Positions 701 through 6,057 of a DNA stretch of 64,000 nucleotides are shown here, piece after piece. Within the stretch, counting starts at the first letter, position 1, and the number at the start of each line of letters is the position of its first letter. The translations under genes and the position numbers were made by a program. The notes under the pieces were generated by a model. The model worked only from the letters and a program-made list of their open reading frames with translations, had not been told where the DNA came from and ran no database searches. Source of the stretch: Deltaproteobacteria bacterium (GTDB lineage Bacteria; Desulfobacterota; Syntrophia; Syntrophales; Smithellaceae); contig JAAYDW010000056.1 in assembly GCA_012729055.1 (NCBI GenBank), forward strand, positions 69,691 to 133,690. The letters are read 5' to 3'.

Positions 701-2362
701 CTAATCCTTGAAGACCGCCCCTGTGGAAGCGGAAGTAACCATTTTCGCGTAGCGCGCCAGATACCCCGTGGTGATGGCCGGCGTCCAGGGCTTGAGCGCC
801 TTGCGGCGTTTCTCCAATTCCGCTTCGTCCACCTTCAGCGTCAGCTTCTTGGCCGGAATGTCGACGGCGATAATGTCGCCTTCCTTCACCAGCGCAATCG
901 GACCGCCTTCCGCCGCTTCCGGGGAAATATGGCCGATGGCCGCGCCCTGCGTGCCGCCGCTGAAGCGCCCGTCGGTTAAAAGCGCCACGGACTTGTCGAG
1001 CCCCATGCCGACGATCGCCGACGTAGGGGAGAGCATTTCGCGCATGCCGGGACCGCCTTTCGGCCCTTCGTAGCGGATGACGACGATGTCGCCCGATTTG
1101 ATCCTTCCGCCCATAATAGCGGCGATGGCCTTGTCTTCGGAGTCGAAGACGCGGGCCTTGCCTTCGTTCACCTGCATGGCGGCGGCGACCGCGGACTGTT
1201 TCACCACCGCTCCGTCCGGTGCGAGGTTGCCGCGCAAAACGGCGATTCCGCCCTGCGGCGAATAGGGGCGGTCAAGCGGCCGGATAACATCCTCGTTTAG
1301 AACCCGGGCGGTTTTAAGATTGGCGCCCACGTTCTTTCCGGTTACCGTCAGGCACTTCTCGTTGATGACGCCCAGTTTGGCGATCGTTTTCATGACGGCC
1401 TGGATGCCGCCGGCCGCGTCGAGATCCTCGATGTGATGCGCTCCGGCGGGGCTGAGCTTGCAGATGTTGGCCGTCTTTTCGCTGATTTTGTTGAACAGAT
1501 TCAGATCCAGCGTGATGCCTGCCTCGTGGGCGACGGCCGGAATGTGCAAAACGGTGTTTGTGGAGCAGCCCAGCGCCATGTCGACGGCGATGGCGTTTTG
1601 AAAAGCGGGCAGAGTCGCGATGTCGCGCGGTTTCACATTCTTTTTGAGCAGTTCCATAATTTTCATGCCCGCCTGTTTGGCCAGGCGGTGCCGCGCGGCG
1701 AATACCGCGGGAATCGTGCCGTTCCCGGGCAGTCCCAGCCCCAGCGCCTCCGTGACGCAGTTCATGGAATTGGCCGTGTACATGCCGGAGCAGGACCCGC
1801 AGCCGGGGCAGGCGCAGTCTTCCAGTTGCTGCAATTCCGCGGCGGTCATTTTTTTGGCCTTTACCGCGCCGACGCCTTCAAACACGGTGATGAGATCCGC
1901 CGGCCGGTTTTGAAACCGGCCGGCCAGCATCGGTCCGCCGCTGATGAAAATGGCGGGAACATTGAGCCGGAGCGCCGCCATGAGCATGCCGGGAACGATC
2001 TTGTCGCAGTTGGGAATGAAGACGAGCGCGTCGAAGGGATGGGCCGTCGCCATGATTTCGATGGAATCGGCGATCAGCTCGCGGCTGGCCAGCGAATATT
2101 TCATTCCGGCGTGGTTCATGGCGATGCCGTCGCAGACGCCGATGACGGGAAATTCCACCGGCGTCCCGCCCGCCAGCCGGATGCCCGCTTTGACATCCTG
2201 GGCGATGAGATCCAGGTAGATGTGGCCGGGAATGATTTCGTTGGCCGAGTTGACGACGCCGATAAGCGGGCGCTCCAGTTCTTCATCGGTATAGCCCATC
2301 GCCTTGAAGAGGGAACGGTGCGGCGCCCGCTCCAGTCCTTTTTTCATAAGATCGCTTCGCAT
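701..2362 (-). CDS. ilvD: Dihydroxy-acid dehydratase
   Basis: 553 residues, normal length. It dehydrates 2,3-dihydroxy-isovalerate and 2,3-dihydroxy-3-methylvalerate to the 2-keto acids, the third common step of Val/Ile/Leu synthesis. The Fe-S region shows NCDK (Cys119) and a Cys cluster at 183-191 leading into [11 protein letters not shown]. The early motif reads PGH where [2Fe-2S] homologues have a Cys, so an oxygen-sensitive E. coli-like [4Fe-4S] form is likely (inference). It is the last gene of the ilv operon, with start ATG at 2362 preceded by AGGAG. A perfect palindrome separates it from ilvC. Confidence 0.96.
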
Positions 2363-2417: not shown

Positions 2418-3473
2418 TTACTTCTTTCTCTTCTCCGGTCGCAGGGCCCTCACGGCCGCGCCGGCCTGCCACATTTCGGAATTGCGCATTTCCGTAAGTT
2501 CCGCGTTGAGTTTCTCCTTGTAATCCGGAGCGCTGTTGACGCGCAGAACGACTTCCGTTTCCTTGCCGGCGGCTACGGAATTGTAAAGCTCCGCAAAAAC
2601 CGGTTCCACCGCCTTGCGGAATTTATGCCGCCAGTCGAGCGCGCCGCGCTGGGCCGTCGCCGAGCAGTTGGCGTACATCCAGTCCATGCCGTTTTCACCG
2701 ACCAGGCGGATCAGGCTCTGCGTGAGCTCCTCCACCGTTTCGTTGAAGGCCTCGCTCGGCGTATGGCCGTGGCGGCGCAGTTCGGCGTACTGTGCTTCCA
2801 TGATGCCCGCCAGCGCGCCCATCAGCACGCCGCGTTCGCCGGTGAGGTCGCTGTAGACTTCCATCTGGAACGTCGTCGGAAAGAGGAAGCCCGATCCGAT
2901 GGCGATGCCGAGCGCCAGAGTGCGCTCCATCGCGCGGCCGGTTGCATCCTGGTGCACGGCAAAACTGGAGTTGATGCCGCTGCCGTCGAGGAAATTCCGC
3001 CGGACGGACGTTCCGGAGCCTTTCGGCGCGACCATGATCACGTCGACGAAGTCCGGCGGGACAACGCCCGTCTGATCCTTGTAAACAATGGAAAAACCGT
3101 GCGAAAAGTAAAGCGCGTCTCCTTTTTTCAGATGCGGTTTGACTTTGGGCCACAGGATCATCTGCGCCGCGTCCGAAACCAGATACTGAATGATGGTGGC
3201 TTTCTCCACCGCTTCTTCGATCGGGAAGAGCGTCCGGCCGGGAACCCAGCCGTCGGCGATGGCCTTGTCCCAGTAAGGCTTGTCTTCGGGAGACTGACCG
3301 ATGATGACGCTGACCCCGTTGTCTTTCATGTTAAAGGCCTGTGCGGGACCCTGCACGCCGTATCCCAGAACGGCGATCACTTCGTTTTTAAGCACCTCCT
3401 GCGCTTTTTTCACCGGAAATTCTTCCGAGGTCACCACGTCTTCGACTGTGCCGCCAAAATTGATTTTTGCCAT
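2418..3473 (-). CDS. ilvC: Ketol-acid reductoisomerase, Bacteroidetes/eukaryote-like type
   Basis: 351 residues. It isomerises and reduces 2-acetolactate or 2-aceto-2-hydroxybutyrate with NADPH and Mg2+. The nucleotide-binding turn GYGVQG is at 37-42, His125 lies in FSHGF, Mg ligands are expected in DLTGERG (Asp209, Glu213), and the knotted C-terminal domain contains [10 protein letters not shown]. Phrases such as [22 protein letters not shown] and [11 protein letters not shown] resemble the form found in Bacteroidetes and fungi more than the common class I bacterial enzyme. This is a recalled comparison, not an alignment. Gene order B-N-C-D is intact, and the start has AGGGGG upstream. Confidence 0.94.
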
Positions 3474-3519: not shown

Positions 3520-4005
3520 TTAGTCTTCAAGTTTCAAGGCCACCAGACCCGTCCGGGTAATGTCGGCCATGCCGAACGGTTCCAGACGCGCCAGGGCAAA
3601 GTCGATCTGCGTTTTGTCGCCCGTGATTTCAATGATCACAAACGTGTCTCCCGACAAAATGACTTTCCATTTGTTGGCGTCGATGGCGTCTTTAACGGCC
3701 TCGGTATTCTGCGCCGTCCGGTTCAGCCGCACCAGCACCATCTCGCGATGGAGGGATTCGACGTTGGTCAGGTCGTCGACGGATATGACGTCGACGAGCC
3801 GCTGGAGTTGATTTTCAATCCGGGTGACGGTGGCCTGCGACCCGCTGGTGGTCATCACGATTTTCGAGATGTCCTTTTGCGTGGTCGTGTTCACGCAAAG
3901 GCTGTCGATGTTATAGCCCTTGCCGCCCAGTGTTCCGGCAATCCTGGCCAGCACATCAGGTTTATTGTACACCAGGATCGAAATAATATGGTCTTTTTTT
4001 TCCAT
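3520..4005 (-). CDS. ilvN: Acetolactate synthase small (regulatory) subunit
   Basis: 161 residues, typical for the long IlvN/IlvH form. An N-terminal ACT domain (about 5-80) begins HIISILVYNKPDVLARIAG, and the C-terminal domain that activates the catalytic subunit follows. The ACT domain normally binds valine and mediates feedback inhibition of IlvB. It lies 43 bases downstream of ilvB and 46 bases upstream of ilvC, all on the minus strand, so co-transcription is very likely. The ATG at 4005 has a GAGAGGG site about 10 bases upstream. Confidence 0.95.
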   Translation of the reverse strand: MEKKDHIISILVYNKPDVLARIAGTLGGKGYNIDSLCVNTTTQKDISKIVMTTSGSQATVTRIENQLQRLVDVISVDDLTNVESLHREMVLVRLNRTAQNTEAVKDAIDANKWKVILSGDTFVIIEITGDKTQIDFALARLEPFGMADITRTGLVALKLED

Positions 4006-4048: not shown

Positions 4049-5752
4049 TCAGTTGATCATTTCCCGGGTGCCCAGGGCCATCTGGCTGATCGATTCGCCC
4101 GGATGGACCATGGGATAAACGCATTCCTCGCGCGACACGCGGAAATCCATCAGCACGGGTTTATCCATGGCCAGCCCCTGCCGCAAAACGTCTTCCACTT
4201 CGCCCGGCTTTGTCGCGCGCAGGCCGGCGACGCCGAACGCCTCCGCGAGCTTCACGAAATCCGGCGCATAGGTCATGTCGGTATGCGAATAGCGTTTCTC
4301 GTAAAAGAGCTCCTGCCATTGGCGCACCATGCCCAGGTAGCCGTTGTTGAGCAAAACCACCTTGACGGCGATGTTGTACTGGGCGGCGGTGGCGAGCTCC
4401 TGGATGTTCATCTGGATGCTGCCGTCGCCGGCGATGTCGACGACCTGCCGGTCGGGGAAGGCGCTTTTGACGCCGATGGCCGCCGGCAGTCCAAACCCCA
4501 TCGTGCCCAGGCCGCCGGAGGTAATGAAGGAGTTGGGCCGGTCGAATCCGAAGAACTGCGCTGTCCACATCTGGTTCTGGCCGACCTCGGTCGTGATGAG
4601 AGCGTCGCCCCCGGTGAGATTGGACAAGGTTTGTATGACGAACTGCGGTTTGATGATTTCGCCGTTCTGGCAGTAGGTCAGCGGCGCCTTTTCCCGCCAT
4701 TCGTCGATTTCGGCAAGCCAGTCCCGGCGCGCCGCACTTTCCGGTTCGTAGTGGTGCTCTTCCAGGAAGCGCAGCAGATCCGCAAGAGCGGCTTTGGTGT
4801 CGCCGATGATCGGCAGATCGACGGTCACGTTCTTGTTGATGGAAGACGGATCGATGTCGATATGGACGATTTTCGCGTTGGCCGCGAATGTGTCGATCGT
4901 GCCGGTCACACGGTCGTCGAAGCGAACCCCTACCGCCAGCAGCAGGTCGCATGTGCTGACAGCCATGTTGGCGTAGTAGGTGCCGTGCATGCCCAGCATG
5001 CCCAGCCACAGCGAATCGCTCGCCGGAAAGGATCCCAGCCCCATGAGCGTGCCGGTGACGGGAATCCGGTAGCGTCGCGCCAGACGGGTCAGCTCCTCTG
5101 CGGCCCGGCCGAGGATGACGCCGCCGCCCGTCATGATCAGGGGCTTTTGCGCCCGGGCGAGCATTTCCAGGACGTTGGCCATTTTCTTGGGCGCCGGCTT
5201 GTAGACGGCTTCGTGGTTGCGAATCCGGACGGCCGCCGGATCGTAATCGATTTGCGCGGCCATGATGTTCTTGGGCAGATCCACCAGCACTGGCCCCGGC
5301 CGGCCGGAGCGGGCGATATGAAAGGCTTCCTTGATCGTCGCCGCCAGTTCCTCGATGGTACGCACCAGGAAATTATGCTTGGTACAGGGGCGCGTGATGC
5401 CGGTGATGTCGCATTCCTGGAAGGCGTCGTTGCCGATCAGTCCCGTGGGCACCTGCCCGGTGAAAACCACGAGCGGAATGGAGTCCATGTTGGCCGTGGC
5501 AATGCCGGTGACGGTATTGGTGGCGCCGGGACCGGAGGTGACCAGACACACGCCGACCTTGCCGGTGGCGCGGGCGTAGCCGTCGGCGGCATGGACCGCG
5601 CCCTGCTCGTGCCGGACCAGAATATGCCGGAAATCGCTTTTATAGAGCTCGTCGTAAATATCGAGAACCGCTCCGCCCGGATACCCGAAAATAATTTCCA
5701 CTTTTTCTTCTTTGAGCACTTCCAAGAGAACCTGTGTGCCTTTGAGTTTCAT
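4049..5752 (-). CDS. ilvB: Acetolactate synthase large (catalytic) subunit
   Basis: 567 residues. This thiamine-diphosphate enzyme condenses two pyruvates, or pyruvate and 2-ketobutyrate, in the first committed step of branched-chain amino acid synthesis. The N-terminal pyrimidine-binding domain carries the catalytic Glu49 in RHEQGA. The FAD/central domain follows, and the C-terminal cofactor domain has the GDGS...NN motif. I chose the ATG at 5752 because GGAGG lies six bases upstream. An open frame extends to 5782, but those codons run into the leader region. It is the first structural gene after the attenuator. Confidence 0.96.
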   Translation of the reverse strand: MKLKGTQVLLEVLKEEKVEIIFGYPGGAVLDIYDELYKSDFRHILVRHEQGAVHAADGYARATGKVGVCLVTSGPGATNTVTGIATANMDSIPLVVFTGQVPTGLIGNDAFQECDITGITRPCTKHNFLVRTIEELAATIKEAFHIARSGRPGPVLVDLPKNIMAAQIDYDPAAVRIRNHEAVYKPAPKKMANVLEMLARAQKPLIMTGGGVILGRAAEELTRLARRYRIPVTGTLMGLGSFPASDSLWLGMLGMHGTYYANMAVSTCDLLLAVGVRFDDRVTGTIDTFAANAKIVHIDIDPSSINKNVTVDLPIIGDTKAALADLLRFLEEHHYEPESAARRDWLAEIDEWREKAPLTYCQNGEIIKPQFVIQTLSNLTGGDALITTEVGQNQMWTAQFFGFDRPNSFITSGGLGTMGFGLPAAIGVKSAFPDRQVVDIAGDGSIQMNIQELATAAQYNIAVKVVLLNNGYLGMVRQWQELFYEKRYSHTDMTYAPDFVKLAEAFGVAGLRATKPGEVEDVLRQGLAMDKPVLMDFRVSREECVYPMVHPGESISQMALGTREMIN

Positions 5753-5799
5753 GTGACGCCTCCATCTTTTAGCAAGATCCAAATACCTTCAAAAACAGG

Positions 5800-5879
5800 A
5801 AAGCCGCGATTTCTTTTTTCAGGGAAAAGGCGGCTTTGCGTTTCAAAAACAAAGCCGCGGGTTTTCGGGGCCCGCGGCT
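5800..5879 (-). promoter_or_regulatory. Transcription attenuator of the ilv operon
   Basis: On the minus strand four short segments can pair in alternative ways. Segment 1 (5879-5871) pairs with segment 2 (5861-5853), a 9-bp GC-rich stem followed by TTTGTTTTTG. Segment 2 (5858-5850) pairs with segment 3 (5838-5830) over 9 bp. Segment 3 pairs with segment 4 (5807-5800) over 8 bp, followed by TTTCCTGTTTTTG. The 1:2 hairpin is the best terminator, and 2:3 would be the antiterminator. A GGGGCC in the leader-peptide codons (5923-5918) could also pair with GGCCCC at 5872-5867. It lies between the Val-rich leader peptide and ilvB. Confidence 0.75.
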
Positions 5880-5907
5880 GTCATCTTTTTATGTTTTCTG
5901 GAAAGAC

Positions 5908-6003
5908 TTAACCGGCAGGCCCCCTGCGTACGACTACTACGCCGAGCAATCTTACGATGGCCGGGTTAAGAATTCTGCCGATGTCCAAATTTTTCCGAAG
6001 CAT
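5908..6003 (-). CDS. ilv operon leader peptide (attenuation)
   Basis: A 31-codon frame with a good ribosome site (AAGGAAG, five bases from ATG). Its second half reads RLLGVVVVRRGPAG, with four consecutive Val codons at 5929-5940, Leu-Leu just before them, and Ile and Val elsewhere. This is the composition expected of a branched-chain leader peptide like E. coli IvbL or IlvL. It sits between a strong promoter and a run of alternative hairpins ahead of ilvBNCD. By analogy, ribosome stalling at Val/Leu codons when charged tRNA is scarce would favour readthrough into the operon. Confidence 0.85.
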   Translation of the reverse strand: MLRKNLDIGRILNPAIVRLLGVVVVRRGPAG

Positions 6004-6028
6004 AGTAACTTCCTTATCAGTTGATGCT

Positions 6029-6057
6029 CTTTTAGCGAAAAAGAAACCGCTTGTCAA
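6029..6057 (-). promoter_or_regulatory. Sigma-70-type promoter of the ilv operon
   Basis: On the minus strand a perfect -35 box TTGACA (6057-6052) is separated by 17 bases from TAAAAG (6034-6029). The predicted start near 6022 would give a short untranslated stretch before the leader peptide ATG at 6003. Confidence 0.8.

Follow-up and report, generated by a model that had tools for sequence, protein, structure and literature searches.

The 64,000-nucleotide stretch of DNA analyzed here (the window) almost certainly carries, judging by its anatomy, a ribosome-mediated transcription attenuator of the ilvBNCD operon that is composed of six pairing segments and contains two terminators. Energetics and logic incline us slightly to the view that the two terminators are linked by a relay, in which a helix formed by segments 4 and 5 (4:5) acts as the antiterminator of the second terminator. 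All the parts named in the first-pass annotation of this locus, which described a complete ilvBNCD attenuation system with a Val-rich leader, are indeed present on the minus strand. The host genome (G000) is Smithella-like and belongs to the order Syntrophales, with the closest named ilvB matches coming from Smithella and Syntrophaceae (84% identity). The features of the locus, with the genes identified using NCBIfam profiles, are as follows.

6029..6057, minus strand: promoter read from the sequence, TTGACA (6057-6052), a 17-nt spacer and TAAAAG (6034-6029)
5908..6003, minus strand: leader peptide ORF MLRKNLDIGRILNPAIVRLLGVVVVRRGPAG, 31 codons, with the SD sequence AAGGAAG at 6015-6009
5975..5982, minus strand: segment 1 (AUCGGCAG), which pairs with the leader end CUGCCGGU in the 1:2 hairpin
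5929..5940, minus strand: regulatory run GUA GUA GUC GUA (Val22-Val25), read from the sequence and kept in place in relatives
5915..5923, minus strand: segment 2 (GGGGCCUGC), antiterminator 5' arm in the last leader codons, which pairs with 5875-5867
5867..5878, minus strand: segment 3 (GCCGCGGGCCCC), terminator 1 5' arm and antiterminator 3' arm
5844..5879, minus strand: terminator 1 (T1, 3:4), AGCCGCGGG...CCCGCGGCU followed by UUGUUUUUG, with the hairpin AGCCGCGGGCCCCGAAAACCCGCGGCU at 5879-5853
5850..5861, minus strand: segment 4 (CCCGCGGCUUUG), T1 3' arm, which can pair with segment 5 as the putative relay helix X
5829..5838, minus strand: segment 5 (CAAAGCCGCC), 5' arm of terminator 2 and a 9-pair complement of segment 4
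5791..5837, minus strand: terminator 2 (T2, 5:6), AAAGCCGC...GCGGCUUU followed by CCUGUUUUU, with the hairpin at 5837-5800
4049..5752, minus strand: ilvB, acetolactate synthase large subunit (TIGR00118, E 7e-251), with ATG at 5752 and GGAGG at 5763-5759
3520..4005, minus strand: ilvN, acetolactate synthase small subunit (TIGR00119)
2418..3473, minus strand: ilvC, ketol-acid reductoisomerase (TIGR00465)
701..2362, minus strand: ilvD, dihydroxy-acid dehydratase (TIGR00110)

The promoter has a perfect -35 hexamer and a -10 hexamer that matches the consensus at four of the six positions; a strict consensus promoter scanner did not call the ilvB leader promoter because the scanner demands a final T and this -10 hexamer ends in G. 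At the gathering score, the Rfam search yielded only tRNAs and no leader family in the window, and at relaxed thresholds, the below-threshold matches in the attenuator region all belonged to unrelated families. The leader ORF is translatable, with a ribosome site of its own, and its codon run (VVVV) specifies a product of ilvBNCD, i.e., the operon makes the amino acid that the leader would sense. A matching leader was detected at 119 of the 121 loci collected, with the Val/Ile/Leu run ending just before segment 2; in these 119 loci, the distance from the start of that segment to the leader stop codon is 16-34 nt, most often 25. In two lineages (L036/L120/L123 and L040), the leader-end bases are kept despite being read in a different frame, indicating that what is conserved there is the RNA pairing rather than the peptide sequence.

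The sequence GGGGCCUGC at the leader end is complementary, over 9 pairs, to GCGGGCCCC within the T1 5' arm, and it is positioned such that it is accessible during a stall but covered once the ribosome has reached the stop codon. The whole antiterminator stem has an energy of about -28 kcal/mol in the window, compared with -18 for T1, and is the stabler of the two in 121 of 121 loci (mean -30.0 versus -18.7 kcal/mol). Standard pairs make up 95.8% of the alignment cells of the antiterminator helix, one position of which is U-G in most genera, U-A in one group and C-G in others, and the score of the 2:3 helix plus its enclosed hairpin was reached by 0 of 500 column shuffles. Between its two arms, the antiterminator encloses a small hairpin (GUAUCUU:AAGAUAC in relatives), of which the window (5907-5880) has a reduced form. 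The 1:2 hairpin, with a folding probability of 0.94-0.95 in the window, behaves there as a protector and by this calculation would favor termination when the leader is untranslated; its counterpart in relatives is AGCGGCAG:CUGCCGCU, from which the window differs on both sides, and support among the relatives is moderate (mean z -1.6 to -1.9). Because both the antiterminator arm GGGGCCUGC and the upstream 1:2 arm are present, the layout is that of a standard 1:2, 2:3, 3:4 attenuator to which a second terminator, 5:6, is added, giving six segments in total. The first-pass annotation regarded the layout as non-standard, with the stronger terminator placed first, but it had overlooked the standard antiterminator (5923-5915 with 5875-5867); the four segments that it recognized are real, but those it numbered 1-4 are actually segments 3-6 of the six.

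T1 and T2 both have the form of intrinsic terminators located in the interval between the leader and the first gene, which bears out the earlier proposal of two stop points in series. Their order is conserved, T2 following T1 at 119 of 121 ilv loci; L254 and L259 contain no terminator 2 and represent natural single-terminator variants. The lower stem of T2, AAGCCGC:GCGGCUU, is nearly invariant, with the upper stem and loop free to vary between families. The T2 U-run is interrupted in the window (5804-5791) and uninterrupted in most relatives, so that the earlier description of T2 as the weaker terminator captures in part a peculiarity of the window. With this U-run and the reduced inter-arm hairpin, the window copy is among the lowest scoring of its family. 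The alternative hairpin 4:5 joins GCGGCUUUG (5858-5850) with CAAAGCCGC (5838-5830) over 9 pairs and, among the 121 loci, is mismatched at L240, L211 and L249.

Attenuation through Val codons of a leader peptide had been proposed to operate in this deltaproteobacterium, together with a search of related genomes for loss of the peptide or of the pairing. Both are conserved in the relatives: the leader end, T1 and T2 were found in the same order, using a simple motif, in 42 of the 44 ilvB upstream regions of the window's family. L033 also carries all three elements, differing by a single base, and only L119 is without them in the 600 bases upstream of ilvB. The window was one of the 48 loci used to build a covariance model, which recovers it at E 1e-32. 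Among 155 Syntrophales genomes, 142 yield matches to this model with E <= 0.001, mostly with E < 1e-19; the weaker matches that were inspected, which are counted within the 142, are mostly the trpE relative discussed below. With a single exception, the 105 loci with enough sequence have an acetolactate synthase gene downstream, and about half of these downstream genes encode a second acetolactate synthase paralogue that is 44-54% identical to the window's IlvB.

The Val-type two-terminator leader is found before this second paralogue at L192, L199, L214, L220 and about 50 other loci from many Syntrophales families. At least in G061, G063 and G077, it coexists with an Ile-type leader located before the main ilvB. 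Attenuators of this second Syntrophales ilvB type (L140, L142, L143, L145-L148, L150-L152, L155 and L156) have a mostly Ile-rich leader ending in ..GAG* and a single terminator, AAACCGTTACC..GGTAACGGTTT.

Under the mechanism that we propose, when charged tRNA is ample, the ribosome would reach the leader stop codon and cover segment 2, and 3:4 would form terminator 1; polymerase slipping past it would meet terminator 2 (5:6), which would form in this state with segment 4 tied up in terminator 1. When the leader is not translated, 1:2 would hide segment 2, with the same outcome, namely formation of both terminators. When Val (also Leu or Ile) tRNA is short, the ribosome would stall before segment 2, allowing 2:3 to form and block terminator 1, and the freed segment 4 would take segment 5 before segment 6 is made, such that terminator 2 would be blocked as well and ilvBNCD would be transcribed.

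Switching with ribosome position is purely a calculated result, for which the RNA was masked to 12 nt past the A-site codon and the window was folded. With the A-site at codons 8-22, the predicted probabilities are 0.88-0.94 for the antiterminator, at most 0.06 for T1 and 0.02-0.23 for T2 (0.94, 0.00 and 0.10, respectively, at Val22); at Val23, they are 0.77, 0.06 and 0.46; from Val24 through the stop codon, T1 is at 1.0 and T2 at 0.98. With no ribosome, T1 is at 1.0 and the 1:2 hairpin at 0.94. Imposing the antiterminator on the window gives P(4:5) of 0.93 and P(T2) of 0.06, compared with P(T2) of 0.93 when T1 is imposed, and an in silico swap of the T2 core pairs that keeps T2 but breaks 4:5 brings T2 during the stall to 0.97, versus 0.08 in the native window. 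Across 119 loci, P(4:5) averages 0.97 when the antiterminator has formed and synthesis has not yet reached the T2 3' arm. In the folding calculations, 82 of 117 loci show T1 absent at the best stall codon but formed at the stop codon; with the stall point fixed at the codon that opens the Val run, the equilibrium switch is seen in only 69 of the 117. Among the 83 loci with T1 off, 4:5 forms ahead of the T2 3' arm in all 83, compared with 7 at the stop codon. The mean equilibrium probability of T2 in relatives is 0.64 during the stall versus 0.94 at the stop codon and, because T2 thus persists at equilibrium during the stall in many relatives, the relay needs co-transcriptional order.

This persistence would be expected if T2 were an uncoupled fail-safe, with starvation readthrough achieved by leakiness or by polymerase/ribosome traffic, an alternative that takes attenuation as given and competes with the relay only; we consider it a serious possibility, at somewhat less than an even chance. 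The interrupted T2 U-run of the window also fits such a fail-safe, as does the lack of specificity of the T1/T2 resemblance to the 4:5 pair. On logical grounds, the relay is favored mainly by the proximity of T2 to the gene: in several relatives, T2 lies just 12-30 nt upstream of the gene, with no room for another promoter, so that expression requires T2 to be relieved. An uncoupled T2 that adjoins the gene and, in most relatives, has a strong U-run would cap expression, and a plain terminator does not need a near-invariant lower stem next to a freely varying upper one. The trpE leaders speak against uncoupling as well: stem position 5 of 4:5 is A-U in 65, G-U in 16, G-C in 7 and A.C in 0 (n=88; Fisher p 4e-5, a value that ignores shared ancestry), and 4:5 is mismatched in 0 of these 88 leaders versus 9 for the control pair T1-5':T2-3', with T1 mismatched once (L305) and T2 once (L363). 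When T1 and T2 were permuted between 90 representative loci, the pooled match of 4:5 gave z -5.3; the control pair was significant as well (Wilcoxon p 0.15 against 4:5), with p 0.001 for 4:5 versus 0.014 for the control in the mixed set and no extra signal for 4:5 within ilv (p 0.50) or within trp (p 0.17). The ilv 4:5 core hardly varies, so covariation cannot prove 4:5, and GCGGC terminator bases are frequent (14% in a small sample from these genomes), so that the likeness between T1 and T2 alone is weak evidence. Since the control pair carries a signal as strong as that of 4:5, we do not claim the relay as shown; for this helix, the covariation is suggestive and not decisive.

Two further explanations bear on the attenuator as a whole. 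The layout envisaged in the first-pass annotation, in which T1 is the primary stop, 4:5 its antiterminator and T2 a weaker second stop, correctly includes three hairpins that exist and are mutually exclusive; it is nevertheless extremely improbable, because the leader end supplies an arm of the true antiterminator, which is stabler, and because 4:5 uses the T1 3' arm and needs a complete T1, and so cannot prevent T1. It is also very improbable that the leader and hairpins arose by coincidence or work at the post-transcriptional level (e.g., through reinitiation or an sRNA), a caution raised by Streptomyces coelicolor ilvB, in which changes to the candidate codons are reported to have been without effect (PMC1262725). 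Against this reading, the geometry of antiterminator and terminator relative to the Val codons and the stop codon is kept in 119 loci, and trpE, leuA and aromatic genes are preceded by the same design, each with the matching amino acid.

In the window's genome, the trpE leader MKNISVTLNLNNWWWWSLAGRCVRR is followed by two tandem terminators (L268 / L301, G000:C43:25407-25582, minus strand), and the two-terminator order recurs in the 90 Syntrophales trp leaders that were read out. Outside the Syntrophales, the weak matches to the model are leaders located before ilvB, leuA, trpE and aromatic-pathway-like synthases, nearly all with two terminators, a frequency that is partly ascertainment and cannot be read as such because these loci were found with a two-terminator model. 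The aromatic-pathway-like genes (3-deoxy-7-phosphoheptulonate synthase and relatives) are named from sequence only. Other families within the phylum have Tyr/Phe- and Trp-rich leaders, nearly all with two terminators, upstream of such synthases (L371, L372, L374, L379, L380, L382-L384, L386 and L388). At L262 (match 1501-1651), a Phe-rich leader, MTDIFIFFFGFFRGVCPLSS, with two terminators precedes a periplasmic amino-acid-binding-protein-like gene, a layout that suggests attenuation of an amino acid transporter. There is a slight balance of probability in favor of a design that spans the Desulfobacterota, with ilv, trp, leu and aromatic attenuators that would have two terminators serially wired by a relay helix.

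The E. coli ilvBN (ivbL) and ilvGMEDA (ilvL) operons have Val/Leu/Ile-rich leader peptides, 1:2, 2:3 and 3:4 pairing and one terminator. The Smithella-like locus shares with them the short leader, the alternative pairing and an operon for the same amino acids, but adds a second terminator and the 4:5 pairing. The nearest wiring is that of the enteric his attenuator, in which six segments, A-F, likewise alternate between hairpins in domino fashion (A:B, C:D and E:F against B:C and D:E); only the last his hairpin terminates, whereas in the Smithella-like locus, the second and third hairpins both end in U-runs. In Actinobacteria, attenuators before ilvB, including the ilvB-II motif and that of C. 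glutamicum ilvBNC, have been described (PMC1262725, PMC10272879, PMC11857589). These likewise combine a leader ORF containing branched-chain amino acid codons with a terminator before ilvB, but they belong to another phylum and, within the parts of these sources covered, the two-terminator design was not found. Segments with several partners remain conserved over long distances, according to PMC1262725, and the invariant GCCGC observed here fits this pattern. The rimP leader has a second terminator in tandem (PMC2965389) and resembles the present system in that a single 5' leader contains both terminators and can also form an antiterminator, but it lacks an amino acid leader peptide and differs in gene and sequence.

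The Smithella-like attenuator, which is conserved throughout the order, is ordinary in principle and stands out for its two stops, which appear to be linked; the open-access literature searched yielded no account of leader-peptide attenuators with double terminators in Desulfobacterota. The present observations extend classical attenuation to this phylum, for which that literature gave no description, and add candidate RNA families, ilv and trp, with some hundred examples each, that are absent from Rfam. If the phylum-wide design holds, one ribosome position would set both terminators, and shut-off would be tighter than with a single attenuator while inducibility is kept. The system also offers a testable wiring rule by which an operon could acquire a second terminator and still be switched on. 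For syntrophs that are very hard to grow, these findings predict how the synthesis of branched-chain and aromatic amino acids may be regulated.
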